Origin: Clytia hemisphaerica
Taxonomy: Eukaryota > Cnidaria > Hydrozoa > Leptothecata > Clytiidae
DNA length: 64,000 bases
Direction: 5' to 3'
NCBI GenBank assembly: GCA_902728285.1
Contig: CACVBU010000693.1
Coordinates: 580,779-644,778, forward strand
The position numbers and the translations under genes are program-made. This document shows positions 21,601 through 46,707 of the stretch, piece after piece; position 1 is the first letter of the stretch, and the number at the start of each line of letters is the position of its first letter. The notes beneath the pieces were generated by a model. That model was not told the DNA's origin. It saw only the letters and a program-made list of their open reading frames with translations, and made no database searches.

Positions 21601-24600
21601 AAGCCTACTTTTCCTAATACTCTAATACTCTCGGGTCACTAAATGATCAAAAAAGGTCCTAAATTTCAACTAACTACTTTGGTTTCTGGTGCTAAAGTAT
21701 CTATCTTTGACTTTTATCTGCTCGACAAAAGCATTCCGCTGAAAATCAGTCAGCTGAAAATAACAACAAGTTGAATCATCTAATCAAAGATATTGCATCA
21801 AACAACAAATACTCTCATAAATGCTTTGTCGGGGACTTTAACTTCCCAACAATCAATTGGAAAAATTGGACGACGCCACATCTCGAGGAAAGTAAAGAAG
21901 AAAAATTTCTTGATGCCCTTCGCGACTCCTTTCTCCACCAAAGTGTAGACGAACCAACCAGATGCCGTGGGACTGACGACCCATCTTTAGTCGATCTCAT
22001 TCTAACAGGTGAAGCTAACCAAGCTCTATGTCTAGAGTATCTCAGTCCTTTGTGTTTAAGCGATCATAGCTGCTTGACCTTCACTATCAAATGTGATGCT
22101 GTATTGAAACCTAAATCAGAAAGATACAAGTACGAGGACGCAGACTTTGAAGCAATGAAACAAGATCTCAACTCTGATGATTGGTACAAGCAATTCCCCG
22201 AGATGGCTAATTCTAAGTCAACCGAGGAGCTTTGGCAGCTTTTCCGAAAGAAGATTTTGGATATACGAAACCGTTTTGTACCCATAAAGATCATCGGTGG
22301 TCAAAACTGGAAGAAGAAAGGTAAAAAATACCTATTGGAGTTCAACTTCGGAAAGAAATAGCAGAGAAGAGACGCCTCCATCGGAAATGGATGAAATCAT
22401 CGCCCGAAGAAAAAGAATACAATCGAGCAAAATACACCCCTGTAAGAAACAGAGTGAGCAAATTGATGAGACAAGCTCACAGGAACTACGAACAAAGAAT
22501 TTGTGATAACGCAAAGACCAAACCGAAGATCTTCTGGTCACATGTGCGTAACAAGATGAAATCTTCTAGTACAGTTTCATCACTACTTGAATCACCAAAT
22601 GTCAAAACCTCGTTAAAGCATGAAGATCACGAAAAAGCTAATACTTCAATGACAGTTCTGCAGTGTATTCACAAAAGAAGCAGTAGGTGAGCTTCCTGCA
22701 TTTGAAAAGAGAACTGATTCATCCATCGGAGATATTCATATCTCTGGGGAGATGGTACAGAATCAATTGAAAGAGCTCAACCATAATAAGTCATTCGGTC
22801 CAGACGAAATACACCCTAGGATACTAGCGGAATTATCTGACTATCTGTCTCTACCCTTGGCTGTAATCATGAACAAATCTTTAGTTGAAGGCTCATTACC
22901 ACAAGATTGGAAGGTGGCACATGTCACACCTATCTACAAAAACAAGGGACCTCAGAATTTAGCAGTCAATTATCGACCTGTTAGTTTGACATCGGTAGTG
23001 TGCAAATTAATGGAATCAATACTGAGGAAACACATCACGAAGCACCTTTCTGATCATAATCTTCTATCGAACAAACAATATGGCTTCATTAACAACCGTT
23101 CAACCGTGACACAGCTTTTGTACTATCTGGATAAATGTTATGAGAGCATCTCTAAAGGAAACGTTGTTGATAGTATCTACTTCGATTTTGCTAAGGCTTT
23201 CGACACTGTACCCCACCGTCGACTATGCAAGAAACTATCAGCATATGGCATCAACGGTTCAATCTTAAAATGGATAACGTCATTTCTAACAGGTGAAGGT
23301 CAGGTCTAAAAACAGGTCTAAAAGTGAACCAGTCCTTCTCGACTACAGACCCTGGAGTGAGTGGTATTCCACAGGGTAGTGTACGGGGACCAATACTGTT
23401 CGTGCTATACATCAATGATCTTCCTGAAAAGGTCATCTCATTGATCCTACTGTTTGCTGATGATACCAAAATCTTCAAAGAAGTCAACTGCATCGAAGAC
23501 TCTGTTTCCCTTCAGAATGATATAGACACACTTGTAGAATGGTCGAAAGACTGGCTATTACTATTCCATCCTGAAAAGTGTCACGTTCTGACGCTAGGAA
23601 AGTTTGGAAACATCAAACATGCTCATCCATATTCCCTAGATGGACGCCAATTGGAACACGTCTTTGAAGAAAAAGATCTTTGGAATCCTCATTGACTCAG
23701 AACTTACATTTGAAGAACACATTGCAAAGCAAGTCAAAAAAGCAAACGCGATACTTGGCATAATCAATCGAGGATTTGTAGACATGAGTACAAGTACATT
23801 TAAAACATTGTATTGTGCGTTTGTTCGCCCGCATCTGGAGTACGCTCAGTCAGTATGGTCTCCGTTTCTACGTAAACACGTAAATCTGATTGATGGAGTA
23901 CAAAGACGGGCAACAAAACTTGTTCAAAAATGTCGTAATATGTCTTATGAAGAACGATTGCGTGAATTAGATCTTCCTACGCTCGAGTTTAGAAGACACT
24001 TTTGTGACATGGTCCAACTTTACAAGCACATCAACTATTACGAAAAAGATACCATCCCAAACAAGATAGCCCGTTGAACGCGACCAAACAGGAGGCACAA
24101 CTTTGAGATGATTCCAAACTTTGGAAGCGATGGACTCCGTGGTGTACAAACGAATTGCTTCTTTTATCGAACTATACCAACCTGGAATAAATTGCCAAAA
24201 GAAGTCGCTGAGGCAAAGACAGTCAAAGTCTTCAAAGAAAGACTCAACACTGCATGGAGTAAACACCCGAAAAGATTCAACACAAGACAATTGTAAAATA
24301 CGTTTAATCACGATCAGTTCCAGAGGCCCTCGTGCGCCTAGAACTTTGTTACATTATAATATAATTCCTCATGGGTATATAAACTTTCGACCCTGCACAT
24401 TTATTTACTGTACGCTTACTATAGACTGGAGCTTTCCAAAGAAGAACAGCTTTTCGAGATGAATTGATGAATTCGAAAATTTTCCTCACCCTTTGTTGCT
24501 CTGGTTTGTGCAATGGTTTTTCCAGTACTTGCTTACTTTTTTCCATCGTCCTCTATGGTAAAAAAGGATAAAAGTTAGAGGTTAAAATCTTCATGTTTTA

Positions 24601-30100: not shown

Positions 30101-33100
30101 CCCGGGTACTTTTTGGGTGGGTGGGGAGCCAAGTTTGTTTAATCAAACAAGTACCCGGGTACTAATTGGGTAGCATTTTGAATTTGTTCTTTCATTTTTC
30201 TGACTTATTACAGCTTTTCAAAAAAATATTGCGAGATAATGTCACCTAAATTCTGCCAAAATAGTCACATGGGCTAGATCTATCTATCTATCTATCTATC
30301 TATATATTTCAGTAGTTAACAACATAAATGTTTGTTCTCCCTACATATAAAAGCATTAACAAAAATAAGATAAATGAAATTGGTTTAATAATAAAAAATG
30401 TTTGTATGTTTATTCAATAATAAATATGTAAAAATTTGTTAATTCTAAAAAAAAATCTAAGTATGTTTGGTTGAGGACAAAGCCTAGGTTATCGAGATAA
30501 AGAGTAACGAGCATAAGGCTAAACAAAATATTCTGAGAATGCCAAGATACGTGGAGGCAAAGTAGTAATGAGAAGTTGTAGATTTCTACACTTTGACCAG
30601 GTAAAGTAGAAAACTCAAAAATTCTGATTTATATCCTATCTTGGCTTCTTTTATTTCAAAAGCTTTCTTACGTTATTACATTATAGTTGTGGGTTTACTT
30701 CTTTATTCAGCTTTATTAAAAAAACCTGTTTAGAAACTTTCTTGTTTTTTTAGCCATTTTCGTATTATATTATTTTGTTTCTATTTACCACAATAGGTTG
30801 CTTGATTGCATGCTTTGACCTGATAATAACTTCTCTAAGACATTCTGGGTGGGCACTCACAACAAAGCTCAATGAAGTATAACAAATGGAGTTTAGATTA
30901 AAAGTGTTACAGATTCTCGTTTTTAAAGTGAATTTTACTTGCTGGGTCTATTGCAACTGGTTATATTTAGTTTATATTAGTTTCTTATTTTATGTTTAGT
31001 TTTGCTAATTTACTCTGGTTTATACTTTTTATATTTCCAGATATTTCAGAAACTAGATCTTTTGTTAAAACTGTTCTAAGATTTTGTAAGATTGTGAAAA
31101 AGTGTTTTTACATTTTTTGGACCTACCGCGGGAGGTCCTTTAATTTGACCGTTGTCCGTTCGTCTGTTACAAGCTTTTCTCGGGATTGGCTCATTATTTT
31201 TTTTTAATTTTTTGCATAATGATACAAAATAGCAATGCCTGAAAAGTGACGGAGCCCGATTTTTGAAAAAAAATTTTGGGGAGCAAATTTGGGCCAAAAA
31301 CTACCTAAAAATAAGGCTTTTTGGACTTTGTGCAAAATTGCTTCATTAGTTTTTCCTGATTTTTGGCAGAAAGATAGAGTGCAAGGTACCCTAAAATGTG
31401 GCTGAAGTAATTTTTCTCGGAAAATTTTTTTTCGTTTTCAAATACGGATTTTCGAAAAATTTGGGCCAAAAACTACCTAAAAATAAGGTTTTTTGGACTT
31501 AGTGCAAAATCGCTTCTTTAGTTTTTCCTGATTTTTGGCAGAAAGATAGAGTGCAAGGTACCCTAAAATGTGGCTGAATTAATTTTTCTCGGAAAATTTT
31601 TTTTCGTCGTAAAATACGGATTTTCGTTTTTTGGGGAAATTCCCTTTTACCATTTTCCTGTTAGCAGCTTTTCTCGGGATTGGCTCATTAGTTTTTTTAA
31701 ATTTTTTGCACAAGGATATAAAATAGCAATGCCTAAGAAGTGACGGAGCCCGATTTTTGAAAAAAAATTTTTGGGGGCAAATTTGGGCCAAAAACTACCT
31801 AAAAATAAGGTTTTTTGGACTTTGTGCAAAATTGCTTCATTAGTTTTTCCTGATTTTTGGCAGAAAGATAGAGTGCAAGGCACCCTAAAATGTGGCTGAA
31901 GTAATTTTTCTCGGAAAATTTTTTTTCGTCGTAAAATACGGATTTTCGCAAGATTGGGCCAAAAACTACCTAAAAATAAGTTTTTTTGGACTTGGTGCAA
32001 TATTGCTTCATTAGTTTTTCCTGATTTTTTGGACAAAGATGAAGGGCAAGGTTCTCTAAAACGTGACTGAAGTAGTTTTTTTCGGAAAATTTATTTTGGT
32101 CGTAAAAATCGGATTTTCTTATTTGGGGAAATTCCCTTTTGTCATATTTAGGGAAAATGAGCATTTTTCGAGATTGGCTTGGTATTTGTTTCTTATTTTT
32201 TGTATAGTGATATAAAATGGTAATATGTAATGGTAATTTGGGTAGAAAAGTGCCTAATGTTTGTTTTTTTTTGACTTTTTTGACTAATTCGAGCTCTGAT
32301 ACTCACGGTAATCTATTCAAGCTGCTCACTACACTTTCTTATTCCCTTGCTATTTGTCCTATTTTTTTCTGATTTTGATCAACAGGTAGGTCCATTCAGC
32401 ATGTTGCTTGTTTCATCTGTTTTCATGTTTAAAAAATAAGGCAATCAATATACCCGAATGTATTACTGTAAATTACGCCTGGCTTATTAGTTGGGCTAAT
32501 AGTAAAGGAAAATTAAAATTAACAGTTATAAGGGTGGGTTTAATTTTGATGAGTGTAGAATTGAGAAAGATTAATAAGTAATAAATTTATTTTTTGTAGG
32601 TATAGGGTCTAAGAAGGAAAAGTCCTTAAGTACCCGGGTACTTTTTGGGTTGGTATGGGGTCAAGAAGAGAAAAGTCCTTAAAAGTGCCCGGGTACTTTT
32701 TGGGTGGGTATAGGGTCTAGAAGGGAAAAGTCATTAAGTACCCGGGTACTTATTTGGGTGGGTGGTATGAGTCAAAAAAATTTTTAGATAAGTACCCTTT
32801 CTAGGCTATGCTTTAGTACCCTGAGGCTTGACCCCCCCCCTGTTACGACCACAGTCAAAGGCTACCCAAAGGCTCCCTTTTCTCTAGCTGTCTACCCAAA
32901 GGTAGGGGAGGCTGCCACTCTGTTCCTTGGATTTCTCTACTTAACTTTGATTCGTCTCTTTGGGCATCAAGTACCATTTTGGGAATCTTTAGTATGACCC
33001 AGCTGGGGATCGAACCCAGAGCCTCGTGCACTGAAGCTGGATGCTCTACTTTTATGCTACCGCCAGTTCAATACATTTACACCATCAATTTTTTGTGCAC

Positions 33101-41101: not shown

Positions 41102-41281
41102 TACCGTACCAAATCAAATGAATGACCTATCTGGTCATTAAAATACAAACTTAAATGAAAACAAAAATGGTACAGTAGAGTAGAGCTGCGAGCAGAGCTG
41201 CGTAGTTCATTTGTTTTGAAATTTTGCTGCTTTGAGTGGTCAGTCATTTGATGGCTATGCAAGTTACCCGACTTCACGGTA
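41102..41281. mobile_element. TACCGT-ended MITE, copy 1 (180 bp)
   Basis: It begins TACCGTACC and ends TTCACGGTA. It shares TGGTCATTAAAATACAAA, GTAGAGTAGAGCTG and TTTGTTTTGAAATTTTGCTG with copy 2 at 41437-41694. There is no coding capacity. Confidence 0.75.
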
Positions 41282-41436
41282 ATTCATAGAAATAAAATTG
41301 TGATGGAATATTGATTATTATTGGATTTTTTATACTAATATAGTACAGGCGGTAACGAAGCTCCCTTCAAAGACACATAGAAGATAGACGTCCAATCGTT
41401 TATATGTTTATGATGGGGTACACACAGTTTATTATC

Positions 41437-41694
41437 TACCGTGAGATCGGGTAACTTGCATCAGTGGAGGCTAACATGCATAGCCCTCAAATGAATGCTG
41501 GTCATTAAAATACAAATTTAAATCAAAACAAAAAATGGTGAATGGTAGAGTAGAGCTGTGAGTGGAGCTGCTTAGTTGATTTGTTTTGAAATTTTGCTGC
41601 TTTGTGGATTGATCAGTCATTTGATGGCTATGCAAGTTAGCCTTCACTGATGCAAGTTAGCCTCCACTGATGCAAGTTACCCAATCTCACGGTA
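41437..41694. mobile_element. TACCGT-ended MITE, copy 2 (258 bp)
   Basis: The left end TACCGTGAGATCGGGTAACT, continuing GCATCAGTGGAGGCTAAC, is matched inverted by the right end, which finishes GTTACCCAATCTCACGGTA. The GATGCAAGTTAGCC unit is duplicated near the right end. The flanks suggest TA targeting. It lies 155 bp from copy 1. Confidence 0.85.
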
Positions 41695-42092: not shown

Positions 42093-42435
42093 GTTGTTTT
42101 CATGTCCAGCCGCATGGAAAGTGCGAAAGGTCATCACGCTTTGTAAGCATGTCACGAAATAGGGCGGCGTCGAGACGCCCGAGGGTGGTAGGTCAAGGGA
42201 ACCCGCGAGCGATTTTCACACACACAAATGCCAGATTAAAAGTAAAATCCATCGCCAGATTTTGAAAAATATGTTGCGCGAAGACATGATCATCCATTCT
42301 GCTCATACCTTCGGTCCAAAGGGATAAGGCGAATGTGACGATCTGACCTCTGCTTTATATTTGCCAATCCAGTGCGCTCAAAATCTAATTTAAAGCCCAA
42401 AAGTCAGAAGCAGCCACCGACCTAAAATTTGCAAA

Positions 42436-43095
42436 TATCTGTTCTGATTTGCCAGCTGGAAGGATTTCCACGAAATTAAGAACAGTTCCTCGTTTTCCAG
42501 GGGAGAAATTTTACTTCAGAACAGTTATATTTTTCCAGCTAGGAGGTAAAAAAACTTTCAGAACAGATACGAAATTACCAGGCGATTGATTTTACGCGAG
42601 TTAACTGTTCTTATCTACCAGGGCTGACAAAATCTTATAAGAACAGATCGCTAAATTCCAGCTTGACATTGAAGGACTTTTAAGAACAGAAGCTTAATTT
42701 CCAGCTAACAGTTAGAACAGATCCACAATTTCCAGATGTTTTGTAGAACAGATGGAGAATTTTCAGCTGCCACTCCAGGCAACCACATTCAGGACTTTTT
42801 TGAAATTCCCTCAGAACAGATAGGAAATTCTTAGACACCTTATTTATAAATATAAGATGTCAAACTATTTTTTTCATAAGAACAGATCATATTTTTCCAG
42901 CTGGTCCCAATCTTCAGTAGAACAGATCATATTTTTCCATCTGGTCCAAATCTTCAGTAGAACAGACCATATTTTTCCAGCTGGTCCCAATCTTCAGTAG
43001 AACAGACCACTTTTTTCCAGCAGACTTTTTTCTTTAGTTTGCTAAGAACAGACCGCCATTTCCAGCTGGAACGTGCCTTCAGAACAGATATTTTG
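42436..43095 (+). repeat. array of bipartite motif AGAACAG-N11-CCAGCTGG
   Basis: AGAACAG starts at 42479, 42518, 42560, 42640, 42683, 42714, 42745, 42813, 42879, 42919, 42959, 42999, 43045 and 43081, and CTGTTCT (its inverse) at 42439 and 42605. In 11 of the 13 forward units before the last, exactly 11 bases separate AGAACAG from a CCAG-like box; in the other two the gap is 10. The two inverted units each have a 6-base gap. The 11-base gap varies in sequence. The second box is often CCAGCTGG or another CANNTG E-box. Units 42879-42999 form an exact 40-bp tandem; elsewhere spacing is 31-80 bp. The outer ends (AAATATCTGTTCTG and CAGAACAGATATTTT) are inverted, so a foldback element is possible. 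Confidence 0.85.
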
Positions 43096-44213
43096 AAGTC
43101 CTCCTTCGGTGGATGCTTTCGAAAAGTGAATGAAAAAGATCGAGGCAGTGTGCGCCAACGTGGGCAGATTCTCTTATGGAGCCATGACCTTTAGAGTGCA
43201 TATGTGCCAGCGCAAAATACCCGAATATTACTATCTCACTTGACCTCGACTACAAGTTCTTAGAAGGAGGTCAAATCAAATGGTTTTGAAGCCTTCATCG
43301 TAAAGCCCTTAGCTTTTTGGGTTTGCCCTTTTCAGCTTTATGAGTATTTCAACCTAAAGATTAGGCAATACATTGTAAATACCTCCGCCACTGCTTTCAA
43401 ATGTATCCTACCTCCTAAATATTCCCTTTTTAGTGATTTTGTGTAGACGATAGGATCGTCTAACGTAAAATTGAATTCGCGTTATAGCGACCTTAGCCGA
43501 CTTTAGCAGAATAGAAGAGCATCCAGCTACGCTGCGGTTGAGTTCGAACTCCAGCAGTGTCAAACAAAAAGCAACCAAGAGGCTCCAGATTGTATGCATC
43601 TAGTTCTAATACTCGGCAACTAAAACGAAGGATAAAGGGTTAGTGGATTAATCCATGGAGAATCCTTTCTTCTCGGGTAGAGAGAAAAAAAGGGAGCCTT
43701 TCGGTCGACCGCGGCCGCAAACCTATTTATTAAGTGGGCACTAAATTTTGTTTTGCGTGCCATTTTCCAACTGAATGCTTAAAATCTAATGAATTATGTT
43801 TTTCAGAGCACTATATTGAGAAAGTTTATTCAAAGATATTTACAAACGAAGATGAAAAATGAAGAAGAAATAATTAGATACCAAATTTGAGGTATTTTGG
43901 ACATAAACTTATCTAAAAAGCCCAAATTGTTAAAATTGCTAGGCATTTTTGGCTTAAAATCCATAGGCAAAATTTTGGCTGAAATCTGGAAAATCCTTAG
44001 CAACTCCAGCCCTGAGCCGAAAATTGAGGATGCTTATACTTACAAGAAAATGTGCAACTTAACCAGGACGTTCTTATAATATCAATTAGATTCCGCTATT
44101 TCCAAAATACTCCAAAATTGCATCTTTATTATAAAACTTTCTATAAATTATTTGAAATCAACAAAGTCTATAATCACTTCAAATAGTTTAATTTAATCGT
44201 CTCCTGTTTGATT
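43096..44213. other. gene-free stretch
   Basis: No gene is supported between the motif array and the ARSB-like stop codon. The part near 44213 probably contains that gene's 3' UTR. A short GC-rich run at about 43703-43720 happens to hold several six- to eight-base restriction palindromes. Confidence 0.45.
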
Positions 44214-46707
44214 TCAAAGTTTTTGTTTCTTTTCCTCCACAAATGCTGATTTTTTCTCAATAGCAAAAGGGTCAAACTTTTTCTCCGACAGCAATTTTTC
44301 ATATCCATTATTAGACCTCTTTGACAGGATACGTTTCAAAGAGTGACGTCCACAACATATATACCATATGATAATGGCTATGGCAATGAATGGTGAAGCG
44401 AGGAATAGGATTAATCGTATGAATCTGATCAGAGCACCTCTTTCTGCTGGTACTACAGTCACAGTTGAGAGGTCAACATCGTCTGCCAGCCAGGGATGAA
44501 TGAACCTACACAATTTTGAAGATCTGCCAGAGCCTGTACAATTACCAGAGACAATAGTTTCATCGTGATGTGGATAGATCTCGAAATAGTTAGAAACCGG
44601 TGGAGCTTTATTTCTGATTGCCATAGCTGTTTCGAGGATGTCTTTGACGATTTCAGGGTGTTCGTCAGCTATGTTGTGTTCCTCCAGAATATCATTTTCC
44701 AAGTCAAAAAGTAATGTTTGAGGTCCGATTCGTTTAGCATATGCTTGGAACAAGAAATAATTCATGAACGAAGCTCGATGCATTTCTGCTTTTCGTTCAC
44801 CAAACAAGTAATCTAAGAAACGAGCAAACTTCTCATAAGGAACTCTTGGGAACCATTTCGGGTCTGTAGATTGTACATGATCAGCTACAGGTTCTATGTA
44901 ATAATAAGGATCTCTAATATCTCCTTGGATGAGCTTATATTTTCCTTTGATATAAGCAACCATGTTTTTCTTATCATGAGAATCTTTAGATGTGTAGACA
45001 TCAATGAGGACTTCATTTCTGGCGGGAGAACCAGTTTTCAAAGCCTCTGATTGGTCAATCCCATCAAAAGTGACATTTGTAGCCAAATCTTTTGCACCTG
45101 CCCACGATAAGAAGGTTGGCAACCAATCACTGATTTGCATCTTATGATGAAATTCTTGACCAGAGCCGTTCGTATATTTACCACTAAAATCGTGAACGAA
45201 TGCTGGAACTCGCACACCTCCTTCAAATTGATTTAATTTGCCTGAACGTAATGGTTGGTTTAGGCCACCGAATAATGTTGAACCGCCGTTATCAGAAGAA
45301 ACAACAATGATAGTATCTTCACCTACATTTTCTCTGGCAGCTTTGGTGATTTGACCAATACCAGCATCCAGACCAACCACCAAGCCACAGAATTGTCTTC
45401 TCCAAAGATGAGGGATGTGTAAGCATTTGGCTTCATACTCAGGATCTGGTTGCAAAGGTGAATGAGCTGCCGTGTAACTGACGTACAAGAATAACGGATT
45501 CTCCTGGAATTGAAACAAGAACAAGTTATTGTAGAATCTATAAAGGAAAACTATCGCCCGAAGTCCCTTGCGAGTACCTAGATTATTGGCGTGAATACCC
45601 CTGTCTCATCTGCGGCTATATTTAAAATCGAAAAGTCTAGTCTGACTAATTAAAGGTTTTATTTTTACATAAAGTTTTCCCGTTTCATATCAGACACATA
45701 TTTCATATTAGGACAGTGTCTGCCTATTGCTTTATTATGCTGATATAAACAAAAAATGTTTTTTTACTCTTTCTGACCAATCTTGCTCCACATCCTTGTC
45801 AATCCAATGTGAAAAAGCTTGTGAATTAAAACTGATGAGTAAGTAAACGATATCACTATCATTTAAAATCAAAACCTTTAATGTCAGAGAGCGCGAACAT
45901 AGGAACGGTGGACGATTTACTTTTCCCACTGGATGTTTTCCCAGCCCGATGGGTGTGTCAATCTATGAAAAGGATAACACCAGTTGATAGCAGGACACAA
46001 TATTGACCCTTTGTCCAGATTGACGGAATCCGACGAATATTACTTACTTTTTCTTTATGCTCTTCAATTTTCTTCACAGCTGCTGCCGTTTGTAGTTTAG
46101 TTGCATGTGTTTCATTCAGACTGTGCTTAAAAGTCTTATTCTCGTGTGCTTCTACCCAATCAAGACCATAGAAATCCCAAGGATCAAGCCACATGGATTT
46201 ATCGAAACTATCCAAATCCCATAACATGCTACCAGTATGAGATTCAAATCCACGACCAACTGGTGTTTGTTTCCATTGTGAATGTCCTAAATGCCATTTC
46301 CCAACCATGTGTGCTGAATAACCAGCTTTACGTAACAACTGAGGCATGGTCGGCATATCATCTGGAAGACCAGCCAAGGAACCAGGAAACATAGCGAATA
46401 TTAGACCAGTGTTTAATGCATATCGACCTGTCATTAGGGCAGCTCTAGATGGAGTACATGTTGGGTGAGTGTAATGGCTTTTCAGTTTAGTTCCCTCGTT
46501 AGCAATTCGATCGATATTTGGAGTTGGGATGGAAGTGTTTCCTTTAGTGTTGTAATCAAAATCTGCCCATCCGACATCATCCACTAGAATGTATATAATG
46601 TTTGGTCCTTTAGCATCAATATGCCCGATGATAGCCAGTAGAACCAGTAAAAGCAACCAAGATTGCATTGCACTTCTAATCTCTGATATTGGGGATTGTT
46701 TTTCCAT
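44214..46707 (-). CDS. arylsulfatase B-like enzyme with C-terminal membrane anchor
   Basis: Three exons (46048-46707, 45921-45962, 44214-45503) give 663 aa. Sulfatases of this group remove sulfate esters from glycosaminoglycans; ARSB acts on N-acetylgalactosamine-4-sulfate, but substrate cannot be read from sequence. Seen are a signal peptide (about 14-32), metal-binding Asp43-Asp44 in LVDDVGWAD, the formylglycine signature CTPSR with Cys84, GKWHLG (Lys137, His139), and the DNGGS motif in exon 3 with NQPLRSGK after it. Human ARSB is about 530 aa. The extra length is a C-terminal hydrophobic segment near 588-616 followed by Cys-Cys and a basic tail, which predicts a type I membrane protein. 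Exon 2 is only 42 nt and in frame, so exon 1 could also splice directly to exon 3. A splice acceptor ends one base before the AUG. Confidence 0.93.
45649..45882 (-). repeat. dispersed TTAAAGGTTTTATTTT element, copy B
   Basis: This is the inverted counterpart of 25392-25593, with ends ATTAAAGGTTTTATTTTT and AAAATCAAAACCTTTAAT, sharing GACAATCCAATGT-type and CGTTTCATATCAGACACATA segments with small differences. It lies between exons 2 and 3 of the ARSB-like gene, about 40 bp from exon 2. Confidence 0.75.

Follow-up and report, generated by a model that had tools for sequence, protein, structure and literature searches.

A short TIR transposon carrying an array of a two-box motif, and its relatives, in the genome of Clytia hemisphaerica

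Nine ORFs of the window analysed here (the whole stretch of 64,000 nucleotides of Clytia hemisphaerica DNA) were scanned with Pfam and eight of them matched, the matches including a rhodopsin-type receptor, a sulfatase in two exons, a COQ5-type methyltransferase, a trypsin, a PRP4/WD40 protein, Utp14 and a reverse transcriptase. Broken reverse-transcriptase frames lie at 21711-24077, one of them scored as RVT_1 at 2.1e-17, and a large tandem repeat with a 494-bp unit in 2.1 copies is found at 31172-32218. Inverted arms of 45-49 bp, which are 90-96% complementary and carry the words TGCAAGTTACCC/TGCAAGTTAGCC, lie at 41241-41694 and belong to another repeat family; a word similar to these follows one of the transposon copies described below (L009). 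The subject of this analysis is a dense array of the word AGAACAG, for which an earlier note on this DNA had given the bounds 42436-43095. These fall short of the true ends at 42405 and 43121, between which lies a complete element that is named family 1 here (Table 1). Its 16-bp TIRs are imperfect, with the termini CAGAAG..CTTTCG, no stop-to-stop ORF of at least 120 aa overlaps it, a scan of the window with Rfam gave nothing at gathering scores, and the pattern of its TIR ends had no exact match in viral contigs.

Table 1. Features of the family-1 element in the window (positions of the 64,000-nucleotide stretch)
Feature	Positions	Strand	Evidence
Left TSD AAAAGT, 6 bp	42399-42404		
Whole 717-bp non-coding TIR transposon (family 1)	42405-43121	+	End-to-end genome copies, TSDs, empty sites of sister copies
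Left TIR CAGAAGCAGCCACCGA	42405-42420	+	
Outermost box on the left, AAATATCTGTTCTGA (box 1 in inverted orientation); over 15 bp a perfect inverted match to 43079-43093	42433-42447	-	
Inverted unit 1, CTGTTCT-N6-CCAGCTGG	42439-42459	+	
13 forward units AGAACAG-N10/11-CCAG-like, with inverted unit 2 inside the stretch	42479-43069	+	
Inverted unit 2, CTGTTCT-N6-CCAG	42605-42621	+	
Tandem of a 40-bp unit within the array, 3.6 copies, 93% match	42879-43021	+	
Outermost right box TCAGAACAGATATTT	43079-43093	+	
Right TIR, inward reading CGAAAGCATCCACCGA	43106-43121	-	
Right TSD AAAAGT, 6 bp	43122-43127		

A recount of words confirmed that 16 AGAACAG boxes, 14 forward and 2 inverted (CTGTTCT), are present within 42439-43087. 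Of a second box, exact CCAG follows the forward box at a gap of 11 bases in 8 of 14 cases and at a gap of 10 in two, three more forward units carry a CCAG-like box at gap 11 (TCAG, TTAG and CCAT), and the fourteenth forward AGAACAG has no CCAG-like partner. The proportion of 11 in 13 complete units that had been given before for gap 11 therefore stands when CCAG is allowed as many as two mismatches, but not for the exact word. Both inverted boxes are followed by CCAG after 6 bases, as had also been observed, and 13 out of the 15 units in which box 2 is CCAG-like have the same orientation. The tandem that had been described as exact (42879-42999) is real but inexact and longer, as given in Table 1. 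When three of the tandem copies are dropped, the remaining 11 units yield the wider consensus TnAGAACAGATnnnnAATTnCCAG, and the information that these units share lies in box 1, in an AT/AATT pattern of the gap and in CCAG, with little in the flanking positions.

The earlier note had proposed a shuffled-sequence check of the 11-base gap, and the observed pairing lies far above what shuffling and random placement give: in 2000 dinucleotide-preserving shuffles of the 717-bp element AGAACAG occurred 0.18 times on average and three times at most, with never more than one pair per gap, and when 13 CCAG were placed randomly in 20,000 rounds, no more than five fell at any one gap. With the two inverted boxes taken by themselves, 0.7% of 5000 random placements matched the agreement that is observed.

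The genome (417 Mb, 951 contigs) was searched with window positions 42400-43130 as the DNA query. At least 40 end-to-end copies of family 1 were found (40 scored of 369 first-look candidates), including the window copy, the other 39 being identical at 97-99%; many such copies with TSDs were the finding by which the earlier note would have its reading refuted, and they do exist. The left TIR with up to two mismatches has 484 matches in the genome against 3 in the control, and a degenerate TIR pattern 1109 against 9. The 30 best-scoring copies were fetched, and all of them measure 717-721 bp; the 11-base terminal box is found without change in 30 of 30 on the left and in 29 of 30 on the right, and a perfect 6-bp TSD flanks 28 of the 29 testable copies, the exception (L003) showing a one-base difference; the thirtieth copy, L009, lies at a contig start. 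The TSD sequences vary, and A or T occupies each of the six positions in 21-26 of the 29. Joined flanks of 41 insertions of families 1 and 2 (see below for the latter), compared with the fetched loci, gave junction-spanning matches for eight, six of them at 70-84%. The two closest, which were looked at in detail, are clean empty sites of family-1 insertions with a single 6-bp copy, that of L030 in L022 (97.4% over 272 bp) and that of L027 in L028 (93.5% over 154 bp). One family-1 copy, L014, is seemingly inserted in a family-2-like element, as its joined flanks are about 70% similar to family-2 copies, which would mean nesting within the group.

The 30 copies split into two subfamilies with a mean divergence of 0.61% and 0.43% from their own majority, values that are biased low because these copies were the best-scoring ones. 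Among such young copies variability is 0.24% in box 1, 1.4% in box 2 and 1.1% in the spacer; box 2 is thus no less variable than the spacer, and selection on the boxes within these young copies was set aside as evidence. Family 1 is a short non-coding TIR DNA transposon with hundreds of copies in the genome, and it has been active recently. Its copies share exact TIR ends and a constant 6-bp TSD, and they are short, non-coding, uniform and many, which is what characterizes a MITE, or non-autonomous TIR transposon.

Relatives were sought with a pattern that kept the TIR and excluded the bases that follow it in family 1, which gave 268 further ends against 8 in the control, and 30 loci were fetched. 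Among these are three older relatives of family 1 (744, 694 and 795 bp), all with perfect TSDs, and 12 copies with both ends of what is named family 2, ten of them with a perfect TSD. Eleven of the 12 measure 475-564 bp; the remaining one, L044, measures 1248 bp because of a simple-repeat block. This copy (L044:1501-2748) has a perfect TSD, and the block comprises about 600 bp of GATTTTTTTGT-like simple repeat. In six family-2 copies examined AGAACAG occurs once in one and is absent from five, and the arrays consist of GAAACAGATC..TTTCTAGGA or CCAGGA in place of the AGAACAG units; CAGCTG occurs not at all or once per copy in the six copies counted, and CTAGGA and CCAGGA stand there. Family 3 is long, with L061 (6733 bp, TSD GAGTGA), L065 (7576 bp, ACCCTC) and L066 (6657 bp, ATACGT, its sequence containing a run of N), and has relatives elsewhere in the genome, mostly at 90-99%. 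Family 3b is represented by an element of 12,110 bp at C228, whose TSD GGGGGT sits in a G run. Each of the four long elements tested has a 6-bp TSD. Families 2, 3 and 3b have the TIRs and 6-bp TSDs in common with family 1.

Two still longer stretches are delimited by such TIRs, C41:195909-232131 (36.2 kb) and C904:401321-435012 (33.7 kb), the right ends of which are 99% alike; the former contains a family-2 copy and the latter a family-2 right end. From their ends they are possibly giant members, and each could also be two unrelated ends.

With one copy taken per family and the boxes counted as 9-mers of the pattern [AG][AG]AAC[AG]G[AC]T, each family has a main box of its own, namely AGAACAGAT in family 1 (8 of 8), GAAACAGAT in family 2 (10 of 12), GGAACAGCT in family 3 (16 of 17) and GGAACGGCT at the ends of family 3b (9 of 11); in the place of the half-site AGAACA, family 2 has GAAACA and family 3b GGAACG. 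In the long members the arrays are confined to both ends, as far as seen in one copy each: in L065 of family 3 the first 600 and the last 700 bp together contain all 17 box 9-mers, while the 6276-bp interior is free of them, and in family 3b these terminal zones hold 11 of 14, all nine GGAACGGCT among them, and the three in the interior belong to other variants. The outermost box stands 12-13 bases inside each TIR and has the letters of its own family at all eight ends of four copies, one each of families 1, 2, 3 and 3b.

Also the geometry recurs. In forward units the usual gap is 11 bases in family 1 and 10 bases in the other families (4 of 9 in the family-2 copy L050, 4 of 5 at the left end of family 3, 5 of 6 at the left end of family 3b), and the inverted gap is 6 in 2 of 2 cases in family 1, 2 of 3 in family 2, 3 of 4 at the left end of family 3 and 1 of 1 at that of family 3b. 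Agreement is lower at the right end of family 3, with 3 of 7 for the forward gap (reached by chance in 1% of trials) and 0 of 1 for an inverted box at 6, and at the right end of family 3b, with 1 of 6 when the box pattern is strict, which is no better than chance, and 2 of 6 when it is wider; in the family-2 copy L048 the inverted gap is 6 in 1 of 3 (chance 65%). The proposal of the earlier note that kept boxes at a fixed spacing with a free gap make up a composite site is strengthened by this similar geometry in three other families whose box letters differ, and the array is probably such a site.

The best explanation, which is considered to be likely, is that the 717-bp MITE consists of two fused subterminal arrays of composite sites, and that each box pair would dock the transposase or an accessory protein. 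In the long elements an array stands at each end of an interior without recognised coding sequence, and the 717-bp and 475-564-bp elements look like two arrays brought together, which could have happened when a longer ancestor lost its interior, although no such parent of family 1 was seen. Each site, made up of box 1, gap and box 2, would be bound by a transposase or accessory DNA-binding protein that an autonomous relative supplies in trans; many sites in both orientations may concentrate the protein at the ends and assist their pairing, and the box letters would have diverged alongside the binding protein in each family. A geometry that is kept, with letters that differ together over the array and both ends, would be expected if one family-specific protein reads all sites, and that the array recruits a transposase complex is suggested by the analogy with the subterminal repeats of Ac/Ds, En/Spm and Hermes. 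The two-box motif looks like a docking site of the transposon's own machinery and not like a switch of a host gene. A gap of 10-11 bases is about one helical turn, an account that does not explain the 6-base gap of the inverted units.

It may also be that the array within the MITE is passive, having grown by minisatellite-like expansion without any binding role. One part of the array is indeed a plain 40-bp tandem, and as the copies read are young, a purifying signal is hardly readable in them, and box 2 shows none. Outside the tandem, however, it is box 1, the gap pattern and CCAG that are informative and not the flanks, and the recurrence of a similar geometry with other letters in three other families, and at both ends of the long elements, also speaks against a passive array, which is therefore regarded as unlikely. 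A regulatory, silencing or replication element of the host, as which the array might be read because CAGCTG (an E-box for bHLH proteins) and AGAACA (a nuclear-receptor half-site) occur in the window copy, is highly improbable, since many mobile copies with TSDs exist and these very words are the ones that are replaced in the related families; the bHLH and nuclear-receptor reading of the earlier note is not supported in view of the replacements given above for families 2 and 3b. Moreover, among the nine window ORFs scanned the nearest one with a Pfam match, that of the sulfatase (44215-45605, minus strand), turns its 3' side to the element at a distance of 1.1 kb. The earlier note had also considered the body of a foldback transposon, which was right with regard to a transposon body, given the end-to-end copies and TSDs, but not to the foldback, a short-TIR MITE being found instead. 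In a foldback element long inverted ends make up most of the element. The end arms of family 1 (42408-42447 and 43079-43118) are 78% complementary over 40 nt and boxes occur in both orientations, but the alignment of the ends stops after these 40 nt although up to 1500 bp were offered per side, and the units with a CCAG-like box 2 share one direction with two exceptions, so that a foldback transposon with long inverted ends is extremely unlikely.

Compatible with the docking of a transposon-encoded protein is the idea that the element is mobilised by an integrase of the rva_4 type (IS3EU/GingerRoot-like), which is possible but rather doubtful. For one such integrase (PF24764, 1.1e-30), a search in which 101 of 528 first-look candidates were scored gave at least 103 matches across the genome, and 6-bp TSDs are described as usual for IS3EU and are stated for GingerRoot in the part of PMC10045372 drawn on here, which on the other hand reports the termini of IS3EU to be always TA..TA, whereas they are CAG..CG here. 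A left end of the family-2 type at C49:685209 lies 3.9 kb from an open integrase frame of 399 aa, and C768 has an interrupted integrase match at the same offset (5004 bp; 5000 bp allowing for 40 extra bases). However, C49, C300 and C768, which have the same left end, share 354 bp outside the TIR at 97-98%, C300 has no integrase match among the matches listed, C69, C882 and C928 likewise share sequence beyond the TIR, and a second end was found in neither set of loci. Flanks that are shared beyond the TIR imply that the end lies inside a larger repeat or that one locus was duplicated, which leaves the link between end and integrase unproven, and both sets were rejected as proven autonomous elements. 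Twelve integrase matches were listed on contigs up to C90, and only C49:689067 has a degenerate TIR within 6 kb.

C69, C882 and C928 carry a family-2-like right end, which in C69 and C928, the two that were read further, lies within a repeat that spans 15 kb or more and contains integrase and HECT frames. This repeat (L070/L068 in C69, L062/L069/L071 in C928) is 94-98% alike in long aligned blocks, and one of its strands encodes both an rva_4 integrase (PF24764, 1.1e-30) and, at about 1e-8, a HECT ubiquitin-ligase domain. C792 was rejected as an end with its own integrase, as that end is one of the two of a complete MITE of 555 bp that lies beside the integrase. At C49:218301 (L063) no array was seen in the stretch examined, and this locus is regarded as a chance match or as a different repeat.

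Families 3 and 3b have 87 ORFs of at least 52 aa (in L072/L073) or at least 60 aa (in L065), of which 70 were scanned with Pfam one by one, the other 17 lying in or near the end arrays, and only chance-level matches were obtained, the best with an E value of 0.0063. Scans of whole frames with X at stops, an insensitive method, gave no match above the family cut-off; such a scan of L068 missed the HECT domain that its ORF alone shows at 1.1e-8, which is why the ORF-by-ORF scan was relied on. An autonomous partner was thus found neither in the ORFs of the long elements nor at the integrase loci near such ends.

An array that resembled an enhancer has turned out to be part of a mobile element, and a mistaken claim of gene regulation is thereby avoided. 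The four families of this genome, with a similar two-box geometry and letters that differ in step over the array and both ends, are a natural series for the study of how transposase and end sites may change together, and as hundreds of copies spread a dense and possibly protein-binding array over the genome, effects on the host could be tested.

With regard to known systems, family 1 is a MITE of a 6-bp-TSD group that could be placed in none of IS3EU, Dada and hAT. The TSD of hAT elements, Hermes among them, is 8 bp long, whereas it is 6 bp in family 1, and hAT lineages with 5- or 6-bp TSDs exist. Polinton/Maverick elements have the same TSD length of 6 bp, and they are 15-20 kb long with long TIRs and a polymerase B gene, unlike the 717 bp and 16-bp TIRs of family 1. 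IS3EU and GingerRoot share the 6-bp TSDs, but by the account in PMC10045372, as far as drawn on, GingerRoot mostly and IS3EU always ends in TA..TA and not in CAGAAG..CTTTCG, which is why a placement in IS3EU fails. Dada has similar TSDs of 6-7 bp, but according to the part of PMC3706591 used here no TIRs and small RNA genes as targets, unlike the 16-bp TIRs and the varied, mostly A/T targets of family 1. The CMITEs of corals are animal MITEs as well, with a conserved internal region that was suggested to help transposition, but in the sections of PMC2872659 used here they are piggyBac-like, about 100 bp long, have TTAA TSDs and come with no description of a composite-site array. Among the published transposon families covered by a literature search, with Repbase outside it, none was recognised as the group of family 1 in the portions of the sources used. 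It is tentatively conceivable that this is an undescribed group of animal DNA transposons with CAGAAGCAG..CTTTCG termini and a 6-bp TSD, ranging from 0.5-kb MITEs to 12 kb and possibly 34-36 kb, the ends of which would be read via two-box composite arrays with a fixed geometry in both orientations, and the box letters of which would co-evolve with the transposase in each family.

In maize Ac/Ds, which is a hAT system, short non-autonomous derivatives share TIRs and subterminal AAACGG repeats with the autonomous element, and deletion derivatives and unrelated fillers are common (PMC3260210, in part), which is like family 1, but Ac/Ds has an 8-bp TSD, a hexamer and a known transposase, whereas here the TSD has 6 bp and the site is a two-box composite with a fixed gap. 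The subterminal repeats of Hermes (hAT) are bound by the BED domains of its transposase, the repeat being a short AAGT (PMC10368747, in part) and in this respect unlike the site described here. En/Spm has subterminal motif arrays that are recognised by the element-encoded TNPA, and in the soybean CACTA element Tgmt* the motif letters differ between two subfamilies while the TIRs are kept, one member being 20.5 kb long (PMC2613891, in part). Subterminal arrays with letters that diverge between families under preserved TIRs are found here too, but the CACTA TIRs and the three-base duplication of En/Spm and Tgmt* are both missing in family 1. The organisation is one that is known from maize and soybean, with short derivatives of elements that have subterminal binding repeats and a divergence of the motif between subfamilies. 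Three points are different here: the site has two boxes with a preferred gap for each orientation, a 6-bp TSD goes with termini of the form CAG..CG, and one genome has four such families.
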